A DNA stretch of 64,000 nt from Arthrobacter endolithicus (GTDB taxonomy: Bacteria > Actinomycetota > Actinomycetes > Actinomycetales > Micrococcaceae). Position numbers and translations under genes: made by a program. The stretch is taken from assembly GCF_026627425.1 (NCBI RefSeq), contig NZ_JAPNLH010000009.1, positions 1 through 64,000 of the forward strand, read 5' to 3'. How positions within the stretch are numbered: position 1 is the stretch's first letter; every line of letters begins with the position of its first letter. Positions 6,865 to 26,865 of the stretch are shown piece after piece. Below the pieces are notes generated by a model. It was not told the origin of the DNA. It worked only from the letters and a program-made list of their open reading frames with translations, and made no database searches.

Positions 6865-10212
<3,348 letters not shown>

Positions 10213-10240
10213 CTATCGTCCTGCTGTACAGTGGCATGCC

Positions 10241-10852
10241 ATGAAGGCAACTGAGCTGAGCCAGGCAGGGCGCCGGGGGCCGTACGCGAAGTCGGCGGAC
10301 CGTCGTCGGACGATCGTCACTGCCGCCCACGCGGTGTTTGCGGCGCGCGGCTATCGCGGCGGCTCGCTGCAGGAGGTGGCCGACCGTGTCGGCATGAGCC
10401 AGACGAGTCTGCTGCATTACTTCCCTACAAAGCGTGACCTGCTCCTGGCCGTGCTCACATGGCGGGACTCAATCTCAGGAGATGGCGCGGGTGCGCCGGA
10501 TCCCGAGGAGAGCCTCGCCGACGCAGTGATCCGGCAGGCCCTCTTCAATGAGGACATTCCCGGCGTAATCGAGCTATATACGGTGTTGTGCGCGGAATCC
10601 ATCACGGAAGACCATCCGGGACGCACATATTTCCTCGACCGGTTTGCCAGACTTCGATTCAGCTACGCCCAGGCGTTCACCCGTCTGGCGCAGGAGGGAC
10701 GCCTGCGTCGCGGCGTTGATCCGGAGCGCGCCGCGGCCTCGCTCATTGCGCTCTGGGATGGCATCCAGACTCAGTGGCTGTTCGCTCCGGACAGTATCGA
10801 TATGGCCGGGAGCCTGCGCGATTATCTTGGGCTCATTATTTTGCCGGAGTAG
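10241..10852 (+). CDS. TetR family transcriptional regulator
   Basis: 203 residues. The N-terminal TetR helix-turn-helix is clear (RRRTIVTAAHAVFAARGYRGGSLQEVADRVGMSQTSLLHYFPTKRDLL, split here by its helices), followed by an unconserved ligand-binding helical domain. ATG 10241 (MKATELSQAG) places the HTH at the usual distance from the N-terminus; an upstream ATG at 10184 would lie inside the putative operator. Divergent from the beta-galactosidase gene, which is its probable target. The ligand is probably a galactoside-related metabolite, by inference only. Confidence 0.88.
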   Translation: MKATELSQAGRRGPYAKSADRRRTIVTAAHAVFAARGYRGGSLQEVADRVGMSQTSLLHYFPTKRDLLLAVLTWRDSISGDGAGAPDPEESLADAVIRQALFNEDIPGVIELYTVLCAESITEDHPGRTYFLDRFARLRFSYAQAFTRLAQEGRLRRGVDPERAAASLIALWDGIQTQWLFAPDSIDMAGSLRDYLGLIILPE

Positions 10853-11274
10853 TGTATTGTCGGCACGCCCAGCGGACTCCCTCACCGCCGCCGCGCCAGC
10901 GGGGTACACACATGCCTGGATCGATGTCGAGGTCCTTTACCAGCAGCAGCAGCAGCAGCATGAGGATATCAGCCTCCATGCCGTTGTCCAGGTGCGCGCG
11001 GATCAGTACGTGGCGAACGTCCTGCCGCTGACGGCCACCAAAGAACTGCGCAACTTCTTCCGGGCGATCCTGCGCAGCCGGTAACCACGGGCAGGCGTGC
11101 CAAGGGCACACCTGCCGGGTCCGCGGAAATCCCGCCGGAGATTTCCGGCAGAGCGAGGGGAGACGCCTAGCCCCGATCAGCAAGTAGGGGAGGCCTTCGC
11201 CGATGACTTGGCAGTCGACCCCTTCGACCATGTGCCCGGTGTTATTGAGCACGGCGACGAAAAACCGAAAATGC
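10853..11274. other. Intergenic region with CAG repeat, possible gene remnant and two hairpins
   Basis: No complete gene is supported. A plus-strand frame at 10905-11084 reads AWIDVEVLYQQQQQQHED then LPLTATKELRNFFRAILRSR before a stop; it has no ribosome-binding site and may be a gene remnant. It contains a run of five CAG codons near 10940. Two hairpins follow: arms 11091-11102 and 11106-11117 (12 bp, one G-U pair when read from the minus strand), and arms 11125-11132 and 11141-11148 (8 bp). The first is placed where it could end minus-strand transcription of the hpa operon. Confidence 0.4.
11091..11117 (-). terminator. Possible terminator of the hpa operon
   Basis: A 12-bp hairpin with a three-base loop lies about 160 bases beyond the last hpa-operon stop codon. 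Read on the minus strand its only imperfect pair is a tolerated U-G. There is no T-run, so intrinsic termination is not certain. Confidence 0.35.
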
Positions 11275-12759
11275 TTAACGGCCCTTGTACGGATCGGCAA
11301 TGCCGATGTATTGGGTCGTGGTGTATTCCGCGATGCCCTCGGAGCCGCCTTCACGGCCCAGGCCGGAATGCTTAACCCCGCCAAAGGGGGCTGCCGCGTT
11401 GGAGATGACGCCGGCGTTGAAGCCGACCATGCCGAACTCCAGCTGTTCGCTCACGCGCAGCAGCCGGGAGAAGTCCTTGGTGTACAGGTAGGCGGCCAGG
11501 CCGTATTCGGTCGAGTTGGCGATCCGGATGGCGTCGTCCTCGTCCGTGAACGTGGTCACAGGGGCCACCGGGCCGAAGATTTCCTGCTGGAGGATCGCTG
11601 CGTCGTTGGGCACGTTGCCCAACACCGTGGGCTGGTAGAAGTAGCCGTCACCATCCACGGCGCTGCCCCCCGTCAGGACCGTGGCACCTGCGGCCACGGC
11701 CTGGGTGACAAGGGCATGGATGCCGGTCCGCGCCTTATCCTCGATCATGGGCCCAACGTCCGTGCCAGCCTCGGTGCCGCGACCAACGGTCAGGGCGCCG
11801 ATGCGCCCGGCCAGCTTCGCCGTAAACTCTTCGGCTACGGACGTGTGGACCAGGAAGCGGTTGGCGGCAGTGCAGGCCTCACCCATATTGCGCATCTTGG
11901 CGGCCATGGCACCGTCAACGGCGTCGTCCATGTCCGCGTCGCCAAAGACAATGAACGGGGCGTTGCCGCCGAGTTCCATCGACGTGCGCAGCACGTTTTC
12001 GGTGGCGGCGGCCATCAACTGCTTTCCTACCGCGGTGGAACCGGTGAAGGAAATTTTGCGCAGCCGCGAATCCTTCAGCAGCGGCCCGGAAATGGACGAG
12101 GCGATGGAGCTGGAGACGACGTTCAGGACGCCGTCGGGAAGGCCCGCTTCCTGCATGATTTGGGCGAACAGCTGCGCTGTCAACGGGGTCAGCTTTGCCG
12201 GCTTGAGCACCATGGTGCAGCCTGCCGCAACGGCCGGGCCCACCTTGCGCGTGGCCATCGCCAGCGGAAAGTTCCACGGAGTGATCAACAGGCACGGACC
12301 CACCGGCTTGTGCTGAACCAGGATCTTGTTCTTGCCTTCCGGCGAGGTCAGATAGCGGCCGTAGTCGCGGACGGCCTCCTCCGAATACCAACGCAGGAAC
12401 TCGGCACCGTAGGATACTTCGCCGCGGGCCTCCGCCAGCGGCTTGCCCATTTCCAGCGTCATCAGCAGGGCGAAGTCCTCGGTCCGTGCCGTAATGAGCT
12501 CAAACGCCTTACGCAGAATTTCGGCGCGCAGCCGCGGCGCCGTCCGGGCCCAGTCGGCCTGCGCGGCGGATGCCGCGTCCAGCGCCGCCAAGGCATCTTC
12601 GCTGGTTCCGTCCGCAATGGACGCCAGCACCTTGCCGGTGGCGGGGTCGTGGACGTCCAGGGTCTTGCCGCCAGACGCCTGGCGCCATTGTCCGTTGATG
12701 AGCAGCCCGGTGGGCACGGAGGCAAGCAGTTCCGCTTCGCGGTCAACTGTAATGGTCAT
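11275..12759 (-). CDS. gabD: Succinate-semialdehyde dehydrogenase (NADP type)
   Basis: Oxidises succinate semialdehyde to succinate. It is last in the hpa operon, and HpaI aldolase immediately upstream (8-base gap) releases pyruvate plus succinate semialdehyde, so the role is the final step of homoprotocatechuate breakdown. The 494-residue length is typical of class I ALDH. Visible motifs are the cofactor-loop sequence TPWNFPLAMATRK, the glutamate in MELGGNAP, the catalytic cysteine in MGEACTAANRF and the C-terminal PFGGVKHSGLGREGG. The same enzyme could also serve GABA catabolism, but no transaminase lies nearby. Confidence 0.9.
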   Translation of the reverse strand: MTITVDREAELLASVPTGLLINGQWRQASGGKTLDVHDPATGKVLASIADGTSEDALAALDAASAAQADWARTAPRLRAEILRKAFELITARTEDFALLMTLEMGKPLAEARGEVSYGAEFLRWYSEEAVRDYGRYLTSPEGKNKILVQHKPVGPCLLITPWNFPLAMATRKVGPAVAAGCTMVLKPAKLTPLTAQLFAQIMQEAGLPDGVLNVVSSSIASSISGPLLKDSRLRKISFTGSTAVGKQLMAAATENVLRTSMELGGNAPFIVFGDADMDDAVDGAMAAKMRNMGEACTAANRFLVHTSVAEEFTAKLAGRIGALTVGRGTEAGTDVGPMIEDKARTGIHALVTQAVAAGATVLTGGSAVDGDGYFYQPTVLGNVPNDAAILQQEIFGPVAPVTTFTDEDDAIRIANSTEYGLAAYLYTKDFSRLLRVSEQLEFGMVGFNAGVISNAAAPFGGVKHSGLGREGGSEGIAEYTTTQYIGIADPYKGR

Positions 12760-12767
12760 GAACTCTC

Positions 12768-13577
12768 CTAATAGCTGGTGGTTGGCCCGGCGTCGGCCGC
12801 CGTGACGTACGTGTTGGCGAGCGCTTCGCTGCCGCGGGCCAACAGGGCCACATCGGCGCCGACCAGAATGAAGTCGACGCCTGCAGCGACGTAGCGGCGG
12901 GCGGTTTCCCGGCCGAAGGCGTTCACGCCCACCGGTTTGCCGGCGGCCTTGGCCACCTTGATGCAGTGTTCGACGGCGGCGATAACGTCGGGATGTTCTT
13001 GCTGTCCCAGCAGGCCCATGGACGCTGCCAGGTCAGACGGCCCGATGAAGACAGCGTCGATCCCGTCCACGGCAACGATCCCGGCCGCGTTTTCCACGGC
13101 CTGGGCGGACTCGATTTGGACCATCACCGTGATGGTTTCCGCGGCCCGGGACAGGTAGTCCGGGATGCGGTTCCACCGCGCAGAGCGGGCCAGAGCAGAG
13201 CCGACACCCCGGACGCCGAGCGGCGGGTAACGGGTGCCGGACACCGCGGCAGCGGCGTCATCGGCCGTGTGGACCATGGGGATCAGCAGCGATTGTGCGC
13301 CGAGGTCCAGATACTGCTTGATCACTACGGGGTCGTTGACCGGCGGTCGCACGACGGCCATGACCGGGTAGCCGTTCACGGCCTGCAGCTGGGCCAGGAT
13401 GGATTCCAGGCCATTGGGGCTGTGCTCGGCGTCGACCAGCAGCCAGTCCAGCCCGGCCCCGGCGCAGATTTCCGCGACCAGCGGGCTGCCGGAACACACC
13501 CACATGCCGGCCAACGGACGGTCCGAGGTGGCCAGCGCGTCCTTGAACGACGGAGCGGGCTTTATTCGAAGCGGCAT
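12768..13577 (-). CDS. hpaI: 4-hydroxy-2-oxoheptane-1,7-dioate aldolase (HpaI/HpcH family)
   Basis: Class II, metal-dependent pyruvate aldolase that splits 4-hydroxy-2-oxoheptanedioate into pyruvate and succinate semialdehyde. 269 residues. Family signatures are LLVDAEHSPNG (base and metal region), VMVQIESAQAVENA (metal-ligand glutamate) and VFIGPSDLAASMG (metal-ligand aspartate). ATG 13577 (MPLRIKPAPSF) overlaps the end of hpaH by 16 bases, indicating translational coupling; a longer upstream reading has no family similarity. Confidence 0.92.
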   Translation of the reverse strand: MPLRIKPAPSFKDALATSDRPLAGMWVCSGSPLVAEICAGAGLDWLLVDAEHSPNGLESILAQLQAVNGYPVMAVVRPPVNDPVVIKQYLDLGAQSLLIPMVHTADDAAAAVSGTRYPPLGVRGVGSALARSARWNRIPDYLSRAAETITVMVQIESAQAVENAAGIVAVDGIDAVFIGPSDLAASMGLLGQQEHPDVIAAVEHCIKVAKAAGKPVGVNAFGRETARRYVAAGVDFILVGADVALLARGSEALANTYVTAADAGPTTSY

Positions 13578-14347
13578 GTGATGGTGCCCAGCTTTCCGTA
13601 GTCGGCGAAGACGGTGTCCCCGGCATGGACCCACATGGGGCGGGTGAACGAGCCGGCGAGGATGAGCTCCCCGGCCTTGAGCACGTCACCGTGCGGGGCG
13701 ATCTTGTTCGCCAGCCAGGACACGCCCTGGGCGGGGTGGTTCAGCACGCCGGCCGCCACCCCGGTTTCTTCCACGGTCTGGTTCTTGTACAGGATGGCGG
13801 AGACCCAGCGGAGGTCGACGTCGTCGGGCTTCACCGGGGTCCCGCCCACCACCATGGCGCCCATGGCGGCGTTGTCGCTGATGGTGTCCACGATGGTCCT
13901 GCCCTCCATTTCGATCCGGGAATCGAGGATTTCCAGCGCCGGCACCACATATTCGGTGGCCCGCAGGACATCGAAAATGGTGGCGTCCGGGCCGGCGACG
14001 TCCTCCTTGAGCAGGAAGGCCAGCTCCACCTCGATGCGCGGGTGCGAGTACTGCTTCCACGCAACAGTGCAGCCGTTCTCCAGGATCATGTCCTTGAAAA
14101 TGACCCCATAGTCCGGCTCCGTGATGCCCGTGGCATATTGCATGGCCTTGGACGTCAGGCCGATCTTGTGCCCGCCCAGCACCCGGCCGGCAGCCTCGCC
14201 GCGTTCACGCCACAGCTGCTGCACACGGTAGGAATCCTCCACCGTCATCTTGGGGTACCGCTGTGTCAGCCGGGGCACCGGAACCCGGCTCCGGCCGGCG
14301 TCCACCAGCTCGTCGGCAATGCGCGCAATGGTGTCATCATCAAGCAT
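13562..14347 (-). CDS. hpaH: 2-oxo-hept-4-ene-1,7-dioate hydratase
   Basis: Hydrates 2-oxohept-4-enedioate to 4-hydroxy-2-oxoheptanedioate, the step before HpaI. 261 residues of the FAH-like hydratase family shared with MhpD/XylJ. It carries the conserved GHKIGLTSKAMQ, the metal-ligand region RIEVELAFLLKEDV, and ALEILDSRI. It starts 12 bases after hpaD ends and overlaps hpaI, firmly inside the operon. XylJ-type hydratases for other meta-cleavage routes look similar, but the neighbours decide. Confidence 0.92.
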   Translation of the reverse strand: MLDDDTIARIADELVDAGRSRVPVPRLTQRYPKMTVEDSYRVQQLWRERGEAAGRVLGGHKIGLTSKAMQYATGITEPDYGVIFKDMILENGCTVAWKQYSHPRIEVELAFLLKEDVAGPDATIFDVLRATEYVVPALEILDSRIEMEGRTIVDTISDNAAMGAMVVGGTPVKPDDVDLRWVSAILYKNQTVEETGVAAGVLNHPAQGVSWLANKIAPHGDVLKAGELILAGSFTRPMWVHAGDTVFADYGKLGTITCRFE

Positions 14348-14359
14348 GTTCTGTCTCCC

Positions 14360-15433
14360 TTAGAGCTGGTTGCCCATTTTGAATCCGCGCTCCTCGCCGG
14401 GTTCGCGGGTGTAGGAGAAGCCGTCGGCGCCGACGGTGACTGCCATCTCGGACGAGTCGGTGCGCTTGATGACGGGCTGCGGATTGCCGTCCAGGTCAAG
14501 CACCAGGGAAGCCTCGGTGTACCAGGAAGGTACTACGGGGTTGCCCCACCAGTCGCGGCGCTGGTTATCGTGGACATCCCAGGTGACGACGGGGTTGTCG
14601 GGGTCACCGGTGTAGTAGTCCTGGGTGTAGATCTCGATGCGGTGGTCGTCCGGGTCCAGGATGTACAGGTAGAAGGCGTTGGAGACGCCGTGGCGGCCGG
14701 GGCCGCGCTCGATCCGGTCCGAGATGCGTAGGGCGCCCATCTTGTCGCAGATGGCGATGATGTTCGCCTTCTCATGCGTGGCAAAGGCGACGTGGTGCAT
14801 GCGGGGGCCGTCGCCGCCGGTCAGGGCGGTGTCGTGGACGGTCTGCTTGCGGTGCATCCAGGCGGCGTAAGTGACGCCGTCGGAGTCTTTGATGTCCTCG
14901 GAGACGCGGAACCCCAAATCCTCCAGATACTTGCGGCCGCGGGGAACGTCAGGGGTGACCTGGTTGAAGTGGTCCAGGCGGACCAGCTCGCCGGCCGTGT
15001 AGAGATCGTAGCGGCGGGTCAACCGTTCCACGTGCGTGGTCTCATAGAAGAACTCGTAGACGAAGCCCAGCGGGTCCTCCACGCGCAGGGCGTCGCCGAT
15101 GCCCTTGACGAAGCCGTCCCTGCGGCGCTCGGTGCGGCAGCCCAGTTCCTTGTAGTAGGCCTCGGCGGCGTCCACCTCGGCCGGGGACTTCACCCGGAAA
15201 GCGGCGGCAGCGATCGCGGCAACCGGGCCCTTGCGCAGCACTAGGTTGTGGTGGATAAACTCCTCGAACGCCCGCAAGTAGATGGTGTTCTCGTCCTCCT
15301 CGGTAACGTGCAGGCCCAGCACGTCCACGTAGAATTCGCGGGACCTGGACAGGTCAGTGACCACCAGTTCCATGTAAGCGCAGCGGACAATGTCCGGAGC
15401 CGGGACGGTGGGGGTGGGGATGAAGTCGGTCAT
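14360..15433 (-). CDS. hpaD: 3,4-dihydroxyphenylacetate (homoprotocatechuate) 2,3-dioxygenase
   Basis: Extradiol ring-cleaving dioxygenase of the VOC superfamily giving 5-carboxymethyl-2-hydroxymuconate semialdehyde. Counting from ATG 15433 the metal ligands fall at His155, His214 and Glu267, with Asn157, His200 and Tyr257 also in place. These are the numbers used for the well-studied Brevibacterium (Fe) and Arthrobacter (Mn, MndD) enzymes, so start and length (357 residues) are secure. The strong ribosome-binding site AGAGGAG precedes the start. Sequence cannot tell whether iron or manganese is used. It sits between hpaE (40-base gap) and hpaH. Confidence 0.96.
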   Translation of the reverse strand: MTDFIPTPTVPAPDIVRCAYMELVVTDLSRSREFYVDVLGLHVTEEDENTIYLRAFEEFIHHNLVLRKGPVAAIAAAAFRVKSPAEVDAAEAYYKELGCRTERRRDGFVKGIGDALRVEDPLGFVYEFFYETTHVERLTRRYDLYTAGELVRLDHFNQVTPDVPRGRKYLEDLGFRVSEDIKDSDGVTYAAWMHRKQTVHDTALTGGDGPRMHHVAFATHEKANIIAICDKMGALRISDRIERGPGRHGVSNAFYLYILDPDDHRIEIYTQDYYTGDPDNPVVTWDVHDNQRRDWWGNPVVPSWYTEASLVLDLDGNPQPVIKRTDSSEMAVTVGADGFSYTREPGEERGFKMGNQL

Positions 15434-15473
15434 GGAGAACTCCTCTTTGAGCAGGGGTGGTTGATCTGGGCGG

Positions 15474-16979
15474 TCAGTTCGTTGCGGAGGCGCCGAATTT
15501 CGGGGTGTGGACGGTGCCGAGCGTGATGTGCACTGCCTGCTGGTCCGTGTAGAAATCGATGGAACGGAAGCCGCCCTCGTGGCCAAGGCCGGACGCCTTC
15601 ACGCCACCAAACGGGGTCCGCAGGTCGCGGACGTTGTGGCTGTTCAGCCACACCATCCCGGCCTCGACGTTTTGGGCAAAGTTGTGGGCCCGGGTCAGGT
15701 TTTGCGTCCAGATGTAGGCGGCCAGGCCGTACTTGACGCCGTTCGCCAAGGCCAGCGCCTCGTCGTCGTTCTCAAAAGGCGTGATGGCGACGACGGGGCC
15801 GAAGATCTCCTCCTGGAAGATCCGGGCCTCGGGCTTTACATCCGCAAACACCGTGGGGGCCACGTAATTGCCGTGCTCCAGGCCTTCTGGACGGCCGCCG
15901 CCGGCGAGCAGGCGGCCCTCGGACTTGCCGATTTCCACGTAGGACATGACCTTGTTGTAGTGCTCTGGGTGAACCAGCGCACCGACCTCGGTCTTGGGGT
16001 CGTGGGGGTCGCCCACCACGATGTGCCTGGCCCGGGCGGCATACTTTTCACAGAATTCGTCGTAGATGGCCCGCTCCACCAGGATGCGGGAGCCAGCCGT
16101 GCAGCGCTCGCCGTTGAGGGAGAAGACGCCGAACAGGGCGGAGTCGATCGCTGCGTCGAGGTCGGCGTCGGCAAATACCACGCAGGGGCTCTTGCCGCCC
16201 AGTTCCATGGACAGGCCCTTGAGGCTGGTGGCGGCGTTGCGGAAGATGGTCTGGCCCGTGGTGGTTTCGCCGGTGAAGGAGATCAGCGGCACGTCCGGGT
16301 GCTTGACCAGTGCGTCACCGGCGTCCTCGCCCAGTCCGTTGACCAGGTTGAAGACACCGTGCGGCAGGCCGGCGTCCTCGAAGATCGTGGCCCACAGCGA
16401 TGCCGAGAGCGGGGTGAACTCGGCGGGCTTGAGCACCACGGTGCAGCCGGAGGCCAGTGCCGGGGCCAGTTTCCAGGATTCCAGCATGAAGGGCGTGTTC
16501 CATGGCGTAATCAGCCCGGCGACGCCGATCGGCTTGCGGTTGACGTAATTGATCTGGGCGCCGGGGACTTTCATGGCGTCGTCGAACTGAGCCACGATCA
16601 GGTCCGCGAAGAAACGGAAGTTCTCCGCCGCACGCAGCGCCTGGCCGCGGGACTGGGTGATGGGCAGGCCGGAGTCAAAGGTTTCCAATTCGGCGAGCCG
16701 TGCCTCCTGGGCCTCGACGGCGTCGGCGATCTTGTTCAGGATGCGGGCGCGCTCCCGCGGCTTCATGCGCGGCCAGGGGCCCTCGTTGAAGGCCTTGGTT
16801 GCGGCGGCTACGGCGAGGTCGATGTCCTCTTTTTGGCCGGCGGCGGCCGTTGCGTAGTTGGTGTTGGAGACAGGATCAAGCACGTTGAAGGTCCCCCCGC
16901 CGACGGAATCGACTTTCTTGCCGTCGATGTAGTGCTGGATGTGCGTGGGAAGATTTTCCGGGATGAAGTGCTCTGCCAT
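15474..16979 (-). CDS. hpaE: 5-carboxymethyl-2-hydroxymuconate semialdehyde dehydrogenase
   Basis: NAD-dependent aldehyde dehydrogenase that oxidises the ring-cleavage product to 5-carboxymethyl-2-hydroxymuconate. 501 residues of the HpaE subfamily. The glutamate lies in MELGGKSP, the catalytic cysteine in GERCTAGSR, and the C-terminal motif is TPFGGVKASGLGHEGG. The ribosome-binding and operon context is good: 30 bases after gntR and 40 before hpaD. The conserved DFYTDQQAVHI tail is typical of HpaE proteins. Confidence 0.93.
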   Translation of the reverse strand: MAEHFIPENLPTHIQHYIDGKKVDSVGGGTFNVLDPVSNTNYATAAAGQKEDIDLAVAAATKAFNEGPWPRMKPRERARILNKIADAVEAQEARLAELETFDSGLPITQSRGQALRAAENFRFFADLIVAQFDDAMKVPGAQINYVNRKPIGVAGLITPWNTPFMLESWKLAPALASGCTVVLKPAEFTPLSASLWATIFEDAGLPHGVFNLVNGLGEDAGDALVKHPDVPLISFTGETTTGQTIFRNAATSLKGLSMELGGKSPCVVFADADLDAAIDSALFGVFSLNGERCTAGSRILVERAIYDEFCEKYAARARHIVVGDPHDPKTEVGALVHPEHYNKVMSYVEIGKSEGRLLAGGGRPEGLEHGNYVAPTVFADVKPEARIFQEEIFGPVVAITPFENDDEALALANGVKYGLAAYIWTQNLTRAHNFAQNVEAGMVWLNSHNVRDLRTPFGGVKASGLGHEGGFRSIDFYTDQQAVHITLGTVHTPKFGASATN

Positions 16980-17009: not shown

Positions 17010-17729
17010 TTAGAGGGAGCGGGCTAGCGGGGCTTTTTCATGAAGCGGGGCGTCCTGCTGGCCACCGGCGTTGCGGGCAAGATAGGCGTCCAGGGTGGCG
17101 GCGCGGTGGGCGCGGGCGGCGCGTTCGACGTCGTCGGCCCCGGCCCCGCTCTCCAGCAGCTTCAGCAGCGCCTCGTGCTCGGCCACTGATTCGCTGGCCC
17201 GGCCCGGGACGTAGTTGAACGTGGAGGAACGCAAGGCCTGCAGCCGGTTCCAGCCGCGGTGGACCAGGTCAAGGATGTGCGGGTTCGGGCAGTTTTCAAA
17301 CAGGACGCTGTGGAACTCCAGGTTCAGCGCTGTGAAGCGGATGGGGTCAAAATGTGCCAGGGACTCGCGCATCGCGGCGTTGACGGCCCGGGCCCTGGCT
17401 ATGTCGGAGCCAGTGATCAGCGGGGCGGACAGTGCGGTGGCGGCACCTTCCACGATGCTCAGGGTCTGCATCGTGTACAGGTACTCGGTGGGGTCGATCC
17501 CGGCCACCGTGGCGCCAACATTCCGCTCGAAGGTGACAAAGCTCTCGGCCTCCAAGCGGCGAATGGCCTCGCGCACCGGCACCACGGAGAAACCGAGGTC
17601 CTCGGCCAGCTTGGCCAGCACCAGCCGGTAGCCGGGGGTGTATTCGCCGCCGAGGATCTTTTCCCTGATGGCGGCGTAGGCCCGCTCGGACTTGCTGCCG
17701 ATTTCGGTGCTCACGGTAGTGCTGCTCAT
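17010..17729 (-). CDS. GntR family regulator, FCD (FadR-type) subfamily
   Basis: 239 residues. The N-terminal winged helix-turn-helix (GSKSERAYAAIREKILGG then SVVPVREAIRRLEAE) is followed by an FCD ligand domain with metal-binding histidines (FHSVLFENC, EHEALL). ATG 17729 overlaps the TGA of the upstream FAH-RraA gene (ATGA), so it is translated as part of the operon it probably controls. A perfect palindrome typical of GntR/FCD sites lies 77 bases upstream of the operon's first gene. The likely ligand is a hydroxyphenylacetate or ring-cleavage intermediate, by inference. Confidence 0.9.
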   Translation of the reverse strand: MSSTTVSTEIGSKSERAYAAIREKILGGEYTPGYRLVLAKLAEDLGFSVVPVREAIRRLEAESFVTFERNVGATVAGIDPTEYLYTMQTLSIVEGAATALSAPLITGSDIARARAVNAAMRESLAHFDPIRFTALNLEFHSVLFENCPNPHILDLVHRGWNRLQALRSSTFNYVPGRASESVAEHEALLKLLESGAGADDVERAARAHRAATLDAYLARNAGGQQDAPLHEKAPLARSL

Positions 17730-19228
17730 GGTTGTGCTGCCGGGTTCGGATGTTTGGCGGCCCATTCGGTGAACCTGGCCTTCCACACGGCGTTCATGGG
17801 GTATAGGCCCTCCACGCTGTTGCCTGCCGCGACCATTTCGGCGATGTAGGTTTCTTCGTACTCCTGGGTGATGGCGTCGTCCGCCACCTCTTCTGCCAAC
17901 GACGGCGGGATGACGAGCACCCCGTCAGCGTCGCCGACGATGATGTCCCCGGGCTGGACGGTGGCACCGCCGCAGGAGATTGTCAGGTCCGTGTCCCAGG
18001 GGATGTGCTTGCGGCCCAGGACCGCCGGGTGGGCGCCGGTGAAGAAGGTGGGCATGTCCAGGGCGGCCACAGCCGCAACGTCCCGGACGCCTCCGTCGGT
18101 GACGATGGCCGTGGCGCCCTTGATCTGCGCGCGCAGGGCCAGGATGTCGCCCACGGTGCCCGTGCCGGGCTCGCCGCGGGCCTCCATCACCAGCACGTCG
18201 CCGTCGTTAAGCGTGTTGATGATGCGCTTCTGGGCGTTGTAGCCGCCGCCGTGCGCCTTGAACAGGTCCTCGCGGTTGGGCACATAGCGCAGCGTGCGGG
18301 CGGTCCCGGCAATCCGGAGCTCGGGGCGGGTGGATTTGAGTCCGTCGATGCTGACGTTGTTCAGCCCGCGCTTGCGAAGCTGGGCGCTCAGGGTAGCCGT
18401 TCCGACGCTGGTCAGCTTGCGCTTGAGCTCGGCGCTGAGGCCCTTCGGTGCCAGGCCGGCAGCTTCAGCGGAACCGTAGGCGTCCTCACGGTCGGCGTCG
18501 GTGGCCTTGGGTCCGTTGCCGAAGTCGGCGAATGGCGTTTCCCCCTGCACGACGACGGTGCGCAGCCGCCCGGTGCTGAATCCTGCAGTGCTTAATCCTG
18601 CAGTGTTCAAGCCCGGTGCGGGGGAGCTGACTTCCACCTCGAGGACGTCGCCGGGCACCGCAACTGAGGAGCCGGCAGGGGTCCCCGTGAGGATGACGTC
18701 GCCCGGTTCCAGCGTCATGAGTTGGGACAGGTCCGCGACGATCTGCCTGAACGGGAAGATCAATCCCGCTGTGGTGTCGTCCTGGACCTGCTCGCCGTTG
18801 ACCCAGGTCCGCACGCGCAGGGCGGCAGGATCGACGTCGGCTGCCGGGATCAGTCCGGGGCCGAAGGGGGTGAAGCCGTCCCCGGACTTGGAGCGGACGT
18901 TGGAGCCCTTGTCCGCGTACTTGAGGTCGTAAACGCCAAGGTCGTTGCTGGCGGTGACGTGACCGACGTGGGACCATGCATCCTCGGGGCTGACCCGTCG
19001 GGCGGCCTTGCCGATCACCAGCGCAATCTCGCCTTCATAGGCGAGCAGCTCGCAGCCGGCGGGGCGTTCAATTTCTGATCCGCTCAGGCTCAGCGACGAC
19101 GACGCCTTGAGGAAATAGGACGGCTTGGCCGGGGTGCGCCCGCGCTGGTCGGCCCGCGACTGATACGCCAAATGCACGGCGATGACCTTGCCGGCCTGCT
19201 TGGCGGTGGCTGCGGTGACTTGTTCCAC
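17726..19228 (-). CDS. FAH-domain isomerase/decarboxylase fused to an RraA-like domain (HpaG-type)
   Basis: 500 residues, first gene of the hpa operon. Residues about 1-205 are one fumarylacetoacetate-hydrolase domain (CELLAYEGEIALVIGK with metal-ligand glutamates, SKSGDGFTPFGPG, GDVILTGTPAGSS). A low-complexity linker with a 15-bp DNA tandem repeat follows. Residues about 255-485 are an RraA/HMG-CHA-aldolase fold (GTATLSAQLRKRG, EARGEPGTGTVGDILALRAQ, GATAIVTDGGVRD). In E. coli HpaG both halves are FAH domains doing isomerisation and decarboxylation. Some RraA-fold enzymes decarboxylate oxaloacetate-like acids, so here the RraA half may supply the decarboxylase step; that is inference. GTG 19228 follows AGGAG by 6 bases. 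Confidence 0.85.
   Translation of the reverse strand: MEQVTAATAKQAGKVIAVHLAYQSRADQRGRTPAKPSYFLKASSSLSLSGSEIERPAGCELLAYEGEIALVIGKAARRVSPEDAWSHVGHVTASNDLGVYDLKYADKGSNVRSKSGDGFTPFGPGLIPAADVDPAALRVRTWVNGEQVQDDTTAGLIFPFRQIVADLSQLMTLEPGDVILTGTPAGSSVAVPGDVLEVEVSSPAPGLNTAGLSTAGFSTGRLRTVVVQGETPFADFGNGPKATDADREDAYGSAEAAGLAPKGLSAELKRKLTSVGTATLSAQLRKRGLNNVSIDGLKSTRPELRIAGTARTLRYVPNREDLFKAHGGGYNAQKRIINTLNDGDVLVMEARGEPGTGTVGDILALRAQIKGATAIVTDGGVRDVAAVAALDMPTFFTGAHPAVLGRKHIPWDTDLTISCGGATVQPGDIIVGDADGVLVIPPSLAEEVADDAITQEYEETYIAEMVAAGNSVEGLYPMNAVWKARFTEWAAKHPNPAAQP
18575..18604. repeat. Two 15-bp tandem repeats in the FAH-RraA linker
   Basis: GCTGAATCCTGCAGT is followed directly by GCTTAATCCTGCAGT, one base different. 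A third, more degenerate unit follows. The repeats are in frame and encode the Thr-Ala-Gly-Leu-Ser-rich linker between the two enzyme domains, pointing to linker growth by slippage. Confidence 0.7.
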
Positions 19229-19654
19229 GAAACTCTCCTGGGCTGAATTTGTTGGGTTTGCTGTGGTCTTAGTGACTGTGACTAGCCGAATTCATCAAGT
19301 ACGAAATCGTATACGATCAAGTTTGCCCTGTAACGCCCGTCACGTCAACCCCTGTGAGCGGTTGGATTTCTCCAGCATGGGCGCATTGTTCATCAGCCCG
19401 GGCCTTGATGGCCTTCACGCCCAAGGTGGGAACCGGCGGTCAGACGGGTCGGTCCGGGCCCGGCCTGTGTCCCTCATGGGCGGCAAATCACTGTCCTGTT
19501 CGGCTGTCCGTCGCCGGCCTGCGGCTGCCCGGCGGGTGAATTCCGGCAATTCGATTTGTCGGGGGATTCGAACTTCGATTGAAGTTGAGCTGCGGGATGG
19601 CCAAGCACGTCAGGGCGCCCGGCCATGCCGGACGCCCTGCGCTCAAGAGACGTG
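19229..19654. promoter_or_regulatory. Promoter region of the hpa operon and downstream flank of the permease gene
   Basis: No gene is supported in this 426-base gap. The part nearest the operon holds the palindrome at 19306-19317 and is relatively A/T-rich (19275-19330), as expected for a promoter. The rest shows no recognisable coding or repeat structure. Confidence 0.5.
19306..19317. promoter_or_regulatory. Candidate operator for the GntR/FCD regulator
   Basis: Perfect 12-base palindrome ATCGTATACGAT, 77 bases upstream of the first hpa gene. Many FCD-type GntR proteins bind ATnGTATACnAT-like sites, so the operon-encoded GntR is the natural partner. Confidence 0.65.
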
Positions 19655-21175
19655 TCAGAGAGGCTCGCAACCAATGCTGGCAGGATCTGACGTCCCGCCA
19701 AAGCCGATGCCCCGGTAAATTTCGGGCCGGTTCTTTTTCAGCCGCAAGCCCCACAACAGTCCGGCTATGCCCGGAATAACCACCAGTGCGGGCAGGATCC
19801 AGGACAGCGGCGAGAACCCGTCCGAGCCGATCAACACATTGAAGTTGACCACGATGAGCACGAACACTGTGCCAAGCGTGAGTGTGGCCAGCCCCGGTGC
19901 GATCACCCGTGTCCACAGCGAGTACCCCGCACTGTGCTTGCGGAAGTAGCCGATGACCGCTACGGAAATCAGGATCAGGAGCAATACCAGACCAAAGGCC
20001 GCCGTGTTGGTCAGCCAGGTGAAGAAGGTCAGCACGGGATACATTTCTCCCATGGCGGAACCGATCCCGGCGACGGTGAACACAGCGAGCATGACGAGGG
20101 CCAGCGCGGACTGGGTCAGCGATCCGGCAACCGGTGCATGCCGGGTGTTGACGCGGGCAAACCTGCGCGGCAGCACGCTTTCCCGCCCCAGCGAGAAGAC
20201 ATACCGGGCAACCGCATTGTGGAAGGCTATCAAGGCTGCCAGCAGACTGGTGATGAACAGGACCTGGGCAATGTCGGAAACAATGACCGAGCCGTGCCCC
20301 GAAAGGAAAACAAAAAGCAGGTCCGGGCCAAACTTCTGCGACTGCGCGACGACCTGGCTGGGGCCCGTGCCGACTGTCATGGCCCAGCCGGAGAAGGCGT
20401 AGAAGAGCGAAATGACTCCGACGGCGATGTACGTCGCCCGGGCGATGGAGCGGGTCGGATCTTTGGCTTCCTCGCTGTAGATCGCGGCCGATTCGAAGCC
20501 CATGAAGGCGGCCATGCTAAATGCCAAGGCCGCCCCGACACCGGCGGTGAACAAGTTCGACGGTGCCAATCCTGCACCGCTCACGCCTTCTGGGCTGACG
20601 GCGAAGGACACAACGTCGAAAACGATAACCGCTACGAATTCGAGTCCGACGAGCACGCCGATGATCTTCGCCGACAGGTCTACCTTGTTGATGCCCAACC
20701 AGCCAACGATGATGAAACCCACCAGGGCCGTCCCCCACCACGGGACATTGAGGCCAAACTTGCCGTTGACGAAGGATGCGGAGGCAAAGCCGAAAAGACC
20801 ATAGATCCCGATCTGCATCGCATTGTAGGAAATCAATGCCACCCAGGCGGCGCCCACCCCCGTGGCACGTCCGATACCTTGGGCGATATAGGCGTAGAAC
20901 GCGCCGGCGTTGCGGATGTGGGCACTCATGGCCGCGTAGCCGACGGCGAAGAGTACGAGGCAGATCCCGAGCACGATGAACGACAATGGAATGCCGACAT
21001 TTCCTGTGACGGCAAAATTGCTGGGAATCCCGCCTGCCACCACCGTTAAGGGGGCGGAGGCCGCAATGATCATGAAGACGAGGGCCGGCACACCGAGCGT
21101 GCGCTTACTCAAGCCCGTGCTTGAGCCGGTGACGGGGGATGTGCCCGTCAGCGACATGGTTTGTTCGTGTGACAT
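19655..21175 (-). CDS. APC family amino acid/amine permease
   Basis: 506-residue inner-membrane permease with about twelve hydrophobic segments. It begins with the APC-type first helix (RTLGVPALVFMIIAASAP...TVVAGGIP) and carries the FMGFESAAIYSEEAKDP motif of the amino acid-polyamine-organocation family. ATG 21175 has GGAGG five bases upstream. It is last in a run with the AraC regulator and aldehyde dehydrogenase and close to an amine oxidase, so uptake of an aromatic amine or related compound is the likely role. Import of an amino acid cannot be excluded. A site shared with the regulator gene precedes it. Confidence 0.88.
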   Translation of the reverse strand: MSHEQTMSLTGTSPVTGSSTGLSKRTLGVPALVFMIIAASAPLTVVAGGIPSNFAVTGNVGIPLSFIVLGICLVLFAVGYAAMSAHIRNAGAFYAYIAQGIGRATGVGAAWVALISYNAMQIGIYGLFGFASASFVNGKFGLNVPWWGTALVGFIIVGWLGINKVDLSAKIIGVLVGLEFVAVIVFDVVSFAVSPEGVSGAGLAPSNLFTAGVGAALAFSMAAFMGFESAAIYSEEAKDPTRSIARATYIAVGVISLFYAFSGWAMTVGTGPSQVVAQSQKFGPDLLFVFLSGHGSVIVSDIAQVLFITSLLAALIAFHNAVARYVFSLGRESVLPRRFARVNTRHAPVAGSLTQSALALVMLAVFTVAGIGSAMGEMYPVLTFFTWLTNTAAFGLVLLLILISVAVIGYFRKHSAGYSLWTRVIAPGLATLTLGTVFVLIVVNFNVLIGSDGFSPLSWILPALVVIPGIAGLLWGLRLKKNRPEIYRGIGFGGTSDPASIGCEPL

Positions 21176-21211
21176 TAAAACCTCCATTGGGAGAATAAAG
21201 ATGCTTTGAGT

Positions 21212-21378: not shown

Positions 21379-22788
21379 TTAGCCGTTGATCACTTGCGGG
21401 ACGCCGAGGGATTTCAGTCCCTCAACCCCGAATTCGAGCCCGTAGCCGGACTGCTTGGCCCCGCCGAACGGAATGCGGGGGTCCACGGCGCCGTGTTTGT
21501 TGACCCACACGGTGCCGGCCTGGATGCGCGCCGCTACACTGCGGGCCTTCGCCAAGTCGGATGACCAGACGGAGGCCCCGAGTCCGACGTCAAGGCCGTT
21601 GGCCATGGCCACCGCCTCGTCGACGGTGCTGTACCGGATGATGGGCAGAGCTGGCCCGAATTGTTCCTCGGCCACCAGCGGGTTGTTGTTGTCTATGTCG
21701 GCAACGAGTGTGGTTGGGTAGAAATAGCCGGGCTGCTCCAGGTCCGGGTTCCCGCCCAGCAGCACTCGTGCGCCAGAGTCTCTGGCAGCTTCCACTAGCC
21801 GGGAAACAATGTCGTATTGCTGCTTGTTCTGCAGCGGTCCGAGCACGTTCGCCTCGTCCAGCCCCACGCCCATCGGCACTGCGGCAGCGAATGCCGTGAG
21901 TGCTTCGCAGACCTCGTCATAGACGTCAGCGTGCACATAGAGGCGCTTCAGGGCCGCACAGGTCTGGCCGGTGTTGATGAACGCACCCCAGAACAAGTCT
22001 TCAGCGATGGCTTTCGGATCGGCGTCGGGGAGAACGATCCCGGCGTCGTTGCCGCCGAGTTCAAGGGTCAGGCGCTTGACGGTGTCTGCTGAGGATTTAA
22101 TGATGGCCTTCCCCGTTGCCGTGGAACCGGTGAACATGATCTTGCCGACCCCGGGGTGTTCCGCCAGACGGGCGCCGACCTCCCTGTCGCCGCAGACCAC
22201 CGAGAGCAGGCCCTCGGGAAGCTCCTGGTTCAGCACCTGGACCAGTGCGAGGACGCTAAGCGGGGTGTACTCGGACGGCTTGACGACCACGGCATTGCCC
22301 ATGCGCAGGGCCGGGGCGATCTGCCAGACCGCGATCATCATGGGCCAGTTCCATGGTCCGATCGCGCCGACGACGCCGATGGGCCGGTAGTGGATTTCGG
22401 CATGCGTCTCGCCGTCGTCGACCACGGTCTCCGCGGTCAATTCAGTTGCGGCGGCGGCGCGCAGCCAGGCGGAGCAGGCGCCGACCTCGAAGCGGGCATT
22501 GGGTCCGTTGAGCGGCTTGCCCTGCTCGCGGGAGAGCAGCTTGGCGAGGTCTTCAGCGGAGCGCTCGACGGCGTCGGCAGCCTTGAGCAGCGCTTCGCTT
22601 CGCGCCTCATGGCCGAGAGCAGCCCACGCGGGCTGGGCAGCAGTGGCGGCAGCGACGGCACGCTCCAAGTCCTCGACATCGTGAACCGGTGCTTTGCCCA
22701 CCGCTTCCCCCGTGGCGGGGTCCAGCAGGGTTCGGGTTTTTCCGGAGGTGGGTGTAATCGCCGTTAGCAGGTCAGTGTACGTTTGCAT
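21379..22788 (-). CDS. feaB: Aldehyde dehydrogenase, probably (hydroxy)phenylacetaldehyde dehydrogenase
   Basis: 469 residues, class I ALDH fold. Motifs are the cofactor loop PWNWPMMIAVWQ, glutamate in LELGGNDAG, catalytic cysteine in NTGQTCAALKRLYV and the C-terminal PFGGAKQSGYGLEFG. ATG 22788 starts where family similarity starts (MQTYTDLLTAI). The gene lies between an AraC/FeaR-like regulator and a permease, and a copper amine oxidase is nearby, the same combination as E. coli tynA-feaB-feaR. It would oxidise the aldehyde from the amine oxidase to the arylacetic acid fed into the hpa operon. Substrate choice is inferred from context only. Confidence 0.8.
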   Translation of the reverse strand: MQTYTDLLTAITPTSGKTRTLLDPATGEAVGKAPVHDVEDLERAVAAATAAQPAWAALGHEARSEALLKAADAVERSAEDLAKLLSREQGKPLNGPNARFEVGACSAWLRAAAATELTAETVVDDGETHAEIHYRPIGVVGAIGPWNWPMMIAVWQIAPALRMGNAVVVKPSEYTPLSVLALVQVLNQELPEGLLSVVCGDREVGARLAEHPGVGKIMFTGSTATGKAIIKSSADTVKRLTLELGGNDAGIVLPDADPKAIAEDLFWGAFINTGQTCAALKRLYVHADVYDEVCEALTAFAAAVPMGVGLDEANVLGPLQNKQQYDIVSRLVEAARDSGARVLLGGNPDLEQPGYFYPTTLVADIDNNNPLVAEEQFGPALPIIRYSTVDEAVAMANGLDVGLGASVWSSDLAKARSVAARIQAGTVWVNKHGAVDPRIPFGGAKQSGYGLEFGVEGLKSLGVPQVING

Positions 22789-23009
22789 GAATTTTCCACT
22801 TCGAGTCGGTAAGCGCAAGGCCGGGCGGCCACTGCCGCGATACGTCAAGTCTTGTTGGTCACCCAGCTTTGTGTCTTGCCGATCTGCGAAGGGCTGTTGA
22901 CCCACGGCGAACAAATATAGTTGCGAGCGTGTTGTCTTCGGAAGGAACAAAGCGGATTTTAGAGGCCAATTTATCGGCGGCGGCCGCGCTTCAGGCGGTG
23001 GCCACACCT

Positions 23010-23996
23010 TCAGGCTGCGGCACGGCCAGCGGGCCGTCGGTAGGCGCTGGGGGGCTCGCCGAAGGCGGATCGGAAGATGCGGCTGAAATGTGCCGCATCG
23101 ACGAAGCCCCACCCTGCGGCAATGCCACTGACCGGGCGATGCGCCAGCATCGGGTCGCGCAGCTCGCGCCGGCAATTCTCCAGCCGCCGTGTGCGGATCC
23201 AGAGGGCCACAGTGGGTCCCGCCTCCTGGAAAACATTGTGCAGGTGCCGAGTGGAGATGAAATGCGCGGCGGCGATGCTGGCCGGGGACAGCTCCGGATC
23301 GGCCAGATTTGCCTCGATGAAACGGCGGATCCTCGCCAGAAGCTCGTCGTGCGGGCGCCCGTGCCCTTCCACTGCCTGGTCCAGCTCAGCCGCGAACATG
23401 GTGCTCAGCAGGTCCACCGCGTTGTGCGCCAGCCGCTGCCCGCTGGGCCCGGAGAGTATGTCCAGATTTTCCGCCAGCTGAGTCATGAAGGGGCTGATCA
23501 TCCGCCCGAGCCCCTTGTTGGCGGCCATCCGCGTGGCCGTCAGTCGGTTGACTGAACCGGCCGGCAGGTCAAGGGCATCGTGGGGGAACATGAGCACCAG
23601 CGTGCGAAAGTCGGACTCGTAAGCCAATGTGTAGGGGCGGTGGGTGTCATACACAGCCAGGTCGCCGGGGTGGAGGACGGCTTCGCGGTTGTCCTGGACC
23701 AGGATACCGGTGCCGGCCAGCTGCAGGTTGAGCTTGAAATAGAGGCGGTCCGAGCGGGTAATGAGCGACGGGGTGCGGTGCACGCTGTGGCCAGAGGCCG
23801 TGACCTCGATGATGGACAGCTCGTCCAGGAGCCGGGAGCGCAGCCGGCCATGAAAATGGTCGGGGTCGCTGAAGCGGACATGCAGCGGCACGAAGGATTT
23901 GGAGATTAAGTCATTCCACTCGGAGAAGGAATGGGCGACGGCGGTTTGGACGGTTTCGGCCGTCTGGATGTCGGCGGTTTCGAGAGCGGCGGTCAT
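23010..23996 (-). CDS. feaR: AraC family regulator, FeaR-like
   Basis: 328 residues. The N-terminal half is the AraC_binding_2 type (LNLQLAGTGILVQDNREAVLHPGDLAVYDTHRPY region), which responds to small ligands. The C-terminal half is an AraC double helix-turn-helix (PASIAAAHFISTRHLHNVFQEAG, GWGFVDAAHFSRIFRSAFGEPPSAYRR in pieces). ATG 23996 has AGGGGA upstream. E. coli FeaR has this architecture and activates tynA and feaB for aromatic amine use; here the regulator precedes the aldehyde dehydrogenase on the same strand. The symbol is by architecture and context. Confidence 0.8.
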   Translation of the reverse strand: MTAALETADIQTAETVQTAVAHSFSEWNDLISKSFVPLHVRFSDPDHFHGRLRSRLLDELSIIEVTASGHSVHRTPSLITRSDRLYFKLNLQLAGTGILVQDNREAVLHPGDLAVYDTHRPYTLAYESDFRTLVLMFPHDALDLPAGSVNRLTATRMAANKGLGRMISPFMTQLAENLDILSGPSGQRLAHNAVDLLSTMFAAELDQAVEGHGRPHDELLARIRRFIEANLADPELSPASIAAAHFISTRHLHNVFQEAGPTVALWIRTRRLENCRRELRDPMLAHRPVSGIAAGWGFVDAAHFSRIFRSAFGEPPSAYRRPAGRAAA

Positions 23997-24924: not shown

Positions 24925-26865
24925 ATGACTGCCGCCACGGATGTCGAAGTCTCCGCCTATTCACTGATCGCCGCTGCCGAAATCACCGCAGTTCGAGCCA
25001 TTCTGCTCACCGCCGGCCTGCTCGGAGACACGGTGCGATTTGCCTACCTGGGACTGTTAGATCCGCCGCGCGGACAGTCCGCCGCGGCTCCGGTTGACCG
25101 CCGGTACCGTGCGTTCCTGCACGACGTTGCCGGCGGCGCAACCAAGGACGTGGTGGTCTCGGTGACCCGGGGCGCCGTCGAATCCGCCGTCGAGCTTGAC
25201 ACCGCGGTGATGGGGGAACTTCCGGTCCTGGAAGAGGAATTCGAGGTGGTGGAGTCGATACTCTCGACCAACCCCGATTGGCTCAACGCGCTCGCGGCCC
25301 GGAACCTGGACGTTGCCAAGGTGCGCGTGGCGCCGCTGTCCGCAGGCGTCTTTGAATACCCGGAGGAAAAGGGCCGGCGCATCCTGCGCGGGCTCGCCTT
25401 TGTCCAGGACTTCCCGGAGGACAGCCCCTGGGCTCACCCCGTCGATGGGCTCGTCGCTTATGTCGACGTCGTCAGCAAGTCGGTCGACCAAGTCCTTGAT
25501 TACGGCGTGGTTCCTGTTCCCGCGGAGCACGGCAACTACACCGACCCCGAGCTGACGGGCCCGATGCGGGAGACACAAAAACCGATCAGCATCACCCAGC
25601 CGGAAGGCCCCAGCTTCACCATCACCGGCGGCAACCACGTCGAATGGGAGAAATGGGGCCTGGACGTCGGCTTCGACGCCCGCGAAGGCGTCATCCTGCA
25701 CAACCTTTCGTTTGCCGAAGGCGGCCGGAAACGCTCCATCATCAATCGCGCCTCCATCGCTGAAATGGTTGTCCCCTATGGCGACCCGTCTCCGGTCCGG
25801 TCGTGGCAAAACTACTTCGACACGGGTGAATACCTGGTCGGCCAGTACGCAAATTCCCTGGAGCTCGGGTGCGACTGCCTGGGCGAGATCACATACCTGA
25901 GCCCGGTGATCAGCGACGCCTTCGGCAACCCCCGCGAGATCCACAACGGGATCTGCATGCATGAAGAGGACTGGTCGATCCTGTCCAAGCACTCGGACCT
26001 GTGGACCGGGATCGACTACACCCGTCGCAACCGCCGGCTGGTGATCTCCTTCTTCACTACCATCGGCAACTATGACTACGGCTTCTACTGGTACCTCTAC
26101 CTGGACGGAACCATCGAGTTCGAGGCCAAGGCTACCGGAATCGTCTTCACCAGCGCCTACCCCGGGAAGGGATACCCGTACGCTTCCGAGCTGGCGCCCG
26201 GGCTTGGCGCACCGTACCACCAGCACCTGTTCGGGGCCCGCCTGGACATGGCCGTAGATGGACTGGCGAATCGGGTGGAGGAGGAGGACGTGGTGCGCGT
26301 GCCCATGGGGGAGGGAAATGAGCGCGGCAACGCCTTCAGCCGCAAGCGCACGGTGCTGGCCACGGAGTCCCAGGCCGTCCGGGAGGCGGAGATGCGCAGC
26401 GGCCGGACGTGGGTGATATCCAACCCGACGTCGCTGAACCGGCTCGGGGACCCGGTGGCCTACAAGCTTCATCCCCAGGGCCAGCCCATGCTGTTGGCGG
26501 ACCCGGAGTCCTCGGTGGCCAAGCGGGCGGCGTTTGCGACGAAGGATCTTTGGGTGACCCGGTTCGCGGAGGGTGAGCACTACCCGACTGGCGACTTCGT
26601 CAACCAGCACAGTGGTGGGGCCGGTCTGCCCGCCTACATCGCCGCAGACCGCGACATTGACGGCCAGGACATTGTTCTCTGGCACACGTTCGGTCTGACA
26701 CATTTCCCGCGGGTGGAGGACTGGCCGATCATGCCCGTTGACTCCGTCGGCTTCAAACTGCGGCCGGAAGGGTTCTTTGACCGCAGCCCGGTGCTTGACG
26801 TGCCTGCCAGCGCCCATGTCCTCCATGAGAGCGGACCCGACGGTGCCGACCACTGCCGTTGCTGA
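24925..26865 (+). CDS. Copper-containing primary-amine oxidase
   Basis: Oxidises primary amines (phenylethylamine, tyramine, dopamine or histamine in relatives) to aldehydes, ammonia and hydrogen peroxide. 646 residues, very close in layout to the Arthrobacter globiformis enzyme. Tyr383 in GNYDY is the residue converted to topaquinone. Asp299 is the catalytic base. His432 and His434 (HQH) and His593 bind copper. Cys318 and Cys344 match the known disulfide. Every position is one above the A. globiformis numbering. ATG 24925 has AAGGG upstream. It has no signal peptide. Phenylethylamine oxidase and histamine oxidase types cannot be separated by eye. Confidence 0.95.

Follow-up and report, generated by a model that had tools for sequence, protein, structure and literature searches.

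The window studied here, the first 64,000 nucleotides of a contig of Arthrobacter endolithicus (NZ_JAPNLH010000009.1), carries on its minus strand an operon of the homoprotocatechuate meta-cleavage pathway (Table 1). In downstream order this comprises a gene joining a fumarylacetoacetate hydrolase (FAH) domain to an RraA-fold domain, followed by genes for a GntR/FCD regulator, HpaE, HpaD, HpaH, HpaI and a succinate-semialdehyde dehydrogenase; the region upstream of the fusion encodes a permease, an aldehyde dehydrogenase and regulators of the AraC and TetR types, and a copper amine oxidase gene lies on the opposite strand. The same gene set, with the same aromatic-amine logic, has been published for the conversion of aromatic amines to homoprotocatechuate in Corynebacterium aurimucosum (hpaX, hpaY, padA, hpaGLEDHI and gabD2; PMC2830990), and the fusion therefore occupies the hpaG slot. 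As far as the cluster description in that paper goes, hpaG is named by its step, hpaF lies elsewhere in the chromosome and an RraA domain is not mentioned. The true start of hpaD is probably further in than that of the listed ORF, judging from the family match, which begins at residue 65. Promoter and terminator scans of the region detected none. The palindrome ATCGTATACGAT upstream of the fusion is a candidate operator of the adjacent GntR regulator, and of 80 fetched loci, 26 have a GTATAC palindrome ahead of the fusion, versus none of 80 control stretches. Beyond the operon, a minus-strand ORF of 1113 residues (window positions 6865-10206) resembles, by eye, a GH2 beta-galactosidase.

Table 1. 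Features of the window and, in the last four rows, DUF3500 genes found beside stand-alone RraA genes.
Feature	Position	Strand	Evidence or remark
gabD2-like succinate-semialdehyde dehydrogenase	11275..12759	-	TIGR01780 564 bits, below cut-off 646
hpaI-like aldolase	12768..13634	-	best match TIGR02311 314 bits, below cut-off 369
hpaH, 2-oxohept-4-ene-1,7-dioate hydratase	13562..14347	-	TIGR02312 368 bits, cut-off 351
hpaD, homoprotocatechuate 2,3-dioxygenase	14360..15586 (as listed ORF)	-	TIGR02295 439 bits, cut-off 321
hpaE, CHMS dehydrogenase	15474..16979	-	TIGR02299 665 bits, cut-off 638
GntR/FCD regulator (hpaL position)	17010..17786	-	ORF overlaps 3' end of fusion gene
FAH-RraA fusion gene (hpaG position)	17726..19228	-	500 aa, single ORF; NF009399 836 bits, cut-off 444
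RraA half, further ligand position E459	17852-17854	-	just past Pfam range
RraA domain	17912..18400	-	aa 277-439; Pfam RraA-like, E 4e-31
RraA half sites			G360, D361, R382, D383 (D-x20-R-D)
FAH domain	18614..19186	-	aa 15-205; Pfam FAA_hydrolase, E 4e-50
FAH half sites			metal triad E65, E67, D96 plus K114 = HpcE E276, E278, D307, K325
FAH half lid residues			R25, Q28, Y100, K103
Palindrome ATCGTATACGAT	19306..19317		upstream of fusion; one copy in window, 0.02 expected
Amino acid/amine permease (hpaX position)	19655..21187	-	domain search
Aldehyde dehydrogenase (padA position)	21379..23175	-	domain and family-model searches
Copper amine oxidase (hpaY position)	24925..26865	+	domain and family-model searches
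DUF3500 gene	L031:3362-4669		PF12006
DUF3500 gene	L106:3572-4849		PF12006
DUF3500 gene	L097:5926-7254		PF12006
DUF3500 gene	L037:5499-6785		PF12006

The start codon of the fusion gene is a GTG at 19228, preceded by AGGAG at a distance of 6 nt. Its ORF has exactly the span given in the preliminary description and lies on the minus strand, and the architecture recognised there, a single FAH domain joined to an RraA-fold domain, was confirmed by the presence of both Pfam domains in the one ORF and by an AlphaFold model with two well-folded domains (mean pLDDT 85, pTM 0.54), in which, with 28 fused sequences as input, the relative placement of the two domains is uncertain. When this model was compared by VIA-align, residues 1-231 aligned with FAH structures (Z up to 28), residues 263-466 gave their best RraA match to RraAS2 of Streptomyces (5x15, Z 26.1), and residues 260-472 aligned with the HMG/CHA aldolase 3noj (Z 21.7); structure comparison of the FAH half with residues 218-429 of the HpcE chain 1i7o gave a Z of 25.0. 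An assembly or frameshift artefact was ruled out, as the full-length fusion exceeds the family cut-off in 80 of the 297 genomes of the order. The FAH-RraA architecture is already known, since NCBIfam holds a family of the same architecture (NF009399/PRK12764, 'fumarylacetoacetate hydrolase family protein'), modelled without a function; its 501-position model covers residues 3-492 of the fusion, which scores as a member. In plasmid records, homologues are labelled 'putative dimethylmenaquinone methyltransferase' or 'FAH family protein'. Among openly accessible papers, our searches found none pairing RraA with fumarylacetoacetate and none that brings RraA together with both fumarylacetoacetate hydrolase and homoprotocatechuate. 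The novelty lies in the comparative evidence, made up of co-occurrence, operon linkage, absence of the HpaG and HpaF models and conservation of the active sites.

The fusion has the same place in the pathway as HpaG/HpcE of E. coli W and C and as HpaG1 and HpaG2 (OPETD and HHDDI) of A. baumannii and, like HpaG, is encoded with HpaD, HpaE, HpaH and HpaI. Unlike HpaG/HpcE, it has an RraA fold instead of a second FAH domain, and neither a second FAH domain in the fusion nor a second HpaG-type FAH in the operon was found. Among the 297 genomes of the order that we surveyed, a true HpaD (above about 400 bits) occurs in 78, and 77 of these also have the fusion above its cut-off, always on the same contig as HpaD and at most 4.8 kb from it. 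The fusion occurs without HpaD in three genomes, at least two of which are cut by contig ends; 216 genomes have neither gene, and one (G679) has HpaD without an intact fusion. There, FAH and RraA are encoded in separate frames (L039:9669-10997 and 9974-12817), reflecting either a natural split or a sequencing error. Canonical HpaG-C (TIGR02303), which exceeded its cut-off in two control genomes, did so in none of the 297. The CHM isomerase HpaF (PF02962) was found in two of the 297 genomes, about 80 of which have a homoprotocatechuate operon; PF02962 matched none of the 14 control genomes, and the sensitivity of this search rests on the two matching genomes of the order.

In the A. endolithicus genome itself (G000), HpaF PF02962 was not found and no PF01361 tautomerase exceeded its cut-off. 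Four further FAH genes were located there as candidates for another HpaG; none scores as HpaG above cut-off, and the three that were placed on the tree belong to other FAH types. The fusion thus stands at the point where the activities of HpaF, HpaG-N and HpaG-C would be expected. CHM can isomerise spontaneously (PMC12718150), so that an absent HpaF need not be replaced. On a midpoint-rooted tree with a long HpcE_N branch, the FAH half falls outside the clade of HpcE and Thermus HpcE with 100/98 support, and the replacement is for this reason non-orthologous. The near-perfect co-occurrence with HpaD and the absence of HpaG-C uphold the earlier suggestion that the fusion replaces the two-FAH HpaG, which we consider, as a reading of sequence comparisons, well supported. 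A plasmid of A. aurescens TC1 carries the fusion; Arthrobacter sp. Rue61a, which is closest to that strain, grows on 4-hydroxyphenylacetate and homoprotocatechuate (PMC3534580).

One homoprotocatechuate cluster is built in another way: at L077:8803-12735, HpaD and HpaE are accompanied by a single Thermus-type FAH (61% identical to 1WZO) and no RraA, and a DHDPS-family aldolase (TIGR02313) is found in place of HpaI. A single FAH may be sufficient in this cluster; other FAHs are encoded elsewhere in the L077 genome.

The preliminary description had suggested that the RraA half may carry the decarboxylase step, a reading that missing active-site residues would refute, and had proposed an alignment of the metal and arginine sites. 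In this alignment the residues are present: G360, D361, R382, D383 and E459 correspond to G101, D102, R123, D124 and E199 of 3NOJ, the C-terminal helix being aligned as an ungapped profile match. The five positions are invariant, with an acid (D or E) at 459, in all 107 fused and all 12 stand-alone copies; L113 (contig edge) and L039 (frameshift) were left out of these counts as artefacts and are both included in the change count of the tree. The invariance of the sites rules out RraA as a dead passenger. The HMG/CHA aldolase decarboxylates oxaloacetate via R123, D124 and E199, of which R123 stabilises the enolate and the two acids are metal ligands (PMC5065237). With this LigK/GalC-type enzyme the RraA half shares the fold, the G-D-x20-R-D motif and the C-terminal acid, but it is only 24% identical to 3NOJ, scores below the cut-offs of the HMG/CHA equivalogs (NF006731, 91 versus 179 bits; TIGR02798, 80 versus 305), and, in the alignment used, does not conserve the positions of Lys147 and Arg195, so that its substrate contacts differ from those of 3NOJ. 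E199 of 3NOJ is contributed by the neighbouring subunit. The RraA half exceeds the cut-off of PRK08245 (232 versus 208 bits); stand-alone PRK08245-type RraA proteins and RraAS2, described as an inhibitor of RNase ES, are relatives that are not fused to an FAH.

In the FAH half, E65, E67, D96 and K114 are kept in 106 of 106 copies, giving a complete FAH metal site. The HpcE C-domain keeps this metal triad as well, whereas the metal-less HpcE N-domain lacks both glutamates. Scores for the HpaG equivalogs lie below cut-off (TIGR02303, 142 versus 276 bits; TIGR02305, 99 versus 229), and the half is closer to the decarboxylase half of HpaG than to the isomerase half (125 bits for the HpcE C-domain, 61 for the N-domain). 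Its neighbours on the tree are stand-alone FAHs, mostly encoded near HpaE-like dehydrogenases, and its position outside the HpcE clade rules out a truncated HpaG that gained an RraA. The lid has been remodelled: the His-Glu dyad is lost, HpcE H235 being replaced by R25 (105/105) and E238 by Q28 (98/105), R311 of HpcE is replaced by Y100 in 98 of the 105, and an arginine or lysine, here K103, stands in all 105 where the other FAHs of the A. endolithicus genome have glutamine. FAH-fold enzymes such as FAHD1 decarboxylate oxaloacetate; the His-Glu dyad and glutamine of FAHD1 serve catalysis, and the corresponding glutamine was reported to be necessary for oxaloacetate decarboxylation in Cg1458 (PMC8398924). 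The FAH half is not of the FAHD1 type, having R25, Q28 and K103 instead of the dyad and the catalytic glutamine. Loss of the glutamine is not diagnostic, because the HpcE C-domain also lacks it; the remodelled lid weakens the case for a decarboxylating FAH half. A typical RraA half (65%) is joined to a different FAH lineage (43%), which retains the His-Glu dyad, at L084:3177-4934, on a contig labelled Stenotrophomonas maltophilia. The contig is probably an actinobacterial contaminant, and a domain swap would be of interest.

Stand-alone RraA proteins, 56-65% identical to the RraA half, occur in two types of operon. The type seen in Demequina and Myceligenerans encodes an HpaD relative, RraA, HpaH and HpaI, with RraA placed between the HpaD relative and HpaH, and the other type (Streptomyces, G562) encodes GntR, RraA, GntR, HpaH and HpaI, with an Amidohydrolase_2 protein. 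In these operons we found no adjoining FAH partner apart from the hydratase HpaH, a distant FAH lying several kb from RraA in L097 and L038. The six Demequina genomes showed no HpaE at E 1e-150, and with operons that lack HpaE the chemistry of the stand-alone RraA may differ from OPET decarboxylation. On the tree the stand-alone RraAs are nested among the fused ones, which indicates that RraA left FAH more than once.

The substrate, split of steps and subunit arrangement that we infer for the fusion are as follows. The fusion would convert the C8 tri-acid (CHM/OPET) of the homoprotocatechuate pathway to the C7 di-acid OHED, which would then be hydrated by HpaH, and would thereby substitute for HpaG (HHDD isomerase and OPET decarboxylase) and possibly HpaF as well. 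In the RraA half, D383 and the acid at 459 of a neighbouring subunit would hold a divalent metal to which the 2-oxo-acid end of OPET binds, R382 would stabilise the enolate, and CO2 would leave in the same way as when RraA-fold HMG/CHA aldolases decarboxylate oxaloacetate. The FAH half, its lid dyad replaced, would tautomerise on both sides of this step, from CHM to OPET and from HHDD to OHED. We hold this assignment, RraA as the decarboxylase and FAH as the tautomerase of a protein standing in for HpaG, with about even confidence. The lean towards RraA comes mainly from RraA working alone just ahead of HpaH. Homology alone cannot assign decarboxylation, since the FAH half has a full metal site and a likeness to HpaG-C, and FAHD1 decarboxylates too; RraA as the decarboxylase is also weakened by the greater closeness of the FAH half to the decarboxylase half of HpaG, by the L077 cluster with one FAH and no RraA, and by the sub-threshold HMG/CHA equivalog scores.

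A serious rival reverses the roles: the FAH half would decarboxylate OPET, as the C-terminal half of HpaG does, and the isomerase or tautomerase in place of HpaG-N and/or HpaF would be the RraA half. The metal-site residues and lysine kept in every FAH half, the best score of this half being to HpaG-C, the decarboxylation of oxaloacetate by FAH folds (PMC8398924) and the lack of a gene for the HpaF and HpaG-N functions would all fit such a protein; the replacement of the HpcE lid dyad and neighbouring residues throughout the fused family and the occurrence of RraA relatives without an FAH partner would not, and we regard the reversal as unlikely, though well worth keeping in mind. It is less probable still that one half only is catalytic for the pathway and the other serves assembly, as neither site varies among the more than 100 divergent copies, whereas the HpcE N-domain is metal-less. 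The precedent for such a division is OPETD of A. baumannii, which needs HHDDI: neither FAH protein decarboxylates well alone, and the activity of the complex exceeds that of OPETD alone 60-fold and that of HHDDI alone 12-fold (PMC12718150, 2025). By the same precedent, correctly assigned half-enzymes of the fusion may still show no activity in assays.

Two further roles were considered for the RraA half. With the fold and motif of class II pyruvate aldolases, the RraA half could be a second aldolase for HHED and a backup to HpaI, but HpaI is present in most fusion operons and FAH would be left to carry the decarboxylase/isomerase step by itself, which makes this very improbable. A regulator of the RNase E type, as claimed for RraAS2, is scarcely credible: RraAS2 is the closest solved relative and inhibits RNase ES (PMC10126417), but the RNase-regulator models score far below their cut-offs (TIGR01935, 46 versus 124 bits; NF006875, 47 versus 136), the catalytic residues are kept and the gene is firmly tied to a catabolic operon.

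That the fusion takes the place of HpaG in tyramine- or dopamine-type aromatic breakdown in many soil actinobacteria is well supported. The split of decarboxylation and isomerisation between the look-alike FAH halves of HpaG is described as still ambiguous (PMC12718150, 2025), and with one half replaced by an unrelated fold the two activities become separable and directly assignable. The finding would also put right how a common actinobacterial gene is annotated, and it draws attention to a catabolic RraA-HpaH-HpaI operon of Demequina, Myceligenerans and Streptomyces. A broader reading is possible, which we advance tentatively from the sequences: the RraA half may be an OPET decarboxylase unrelated to HpaG that, joined to an FAH acting as tautomerase, takes over from HpaF and both HpaG halves in one chain, and that has left the fusion more than once to act alone in an operon lacking FAH and HpaE (DUF3500, an HpaD relative or amidohydrolase, RraA, HpaH and HpaI). 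Genome G268 has an HpaD-relative/DUF3500 locus without RraA, HpaH and HpaI and a full fusion operon elsewhere, which suggests a common lower part of the two routes. In both operon types, a DUF3500 (PF12006) gene and ABC transporter genes recur beside the stand-alone RraA-HpaH-HpaI genes.
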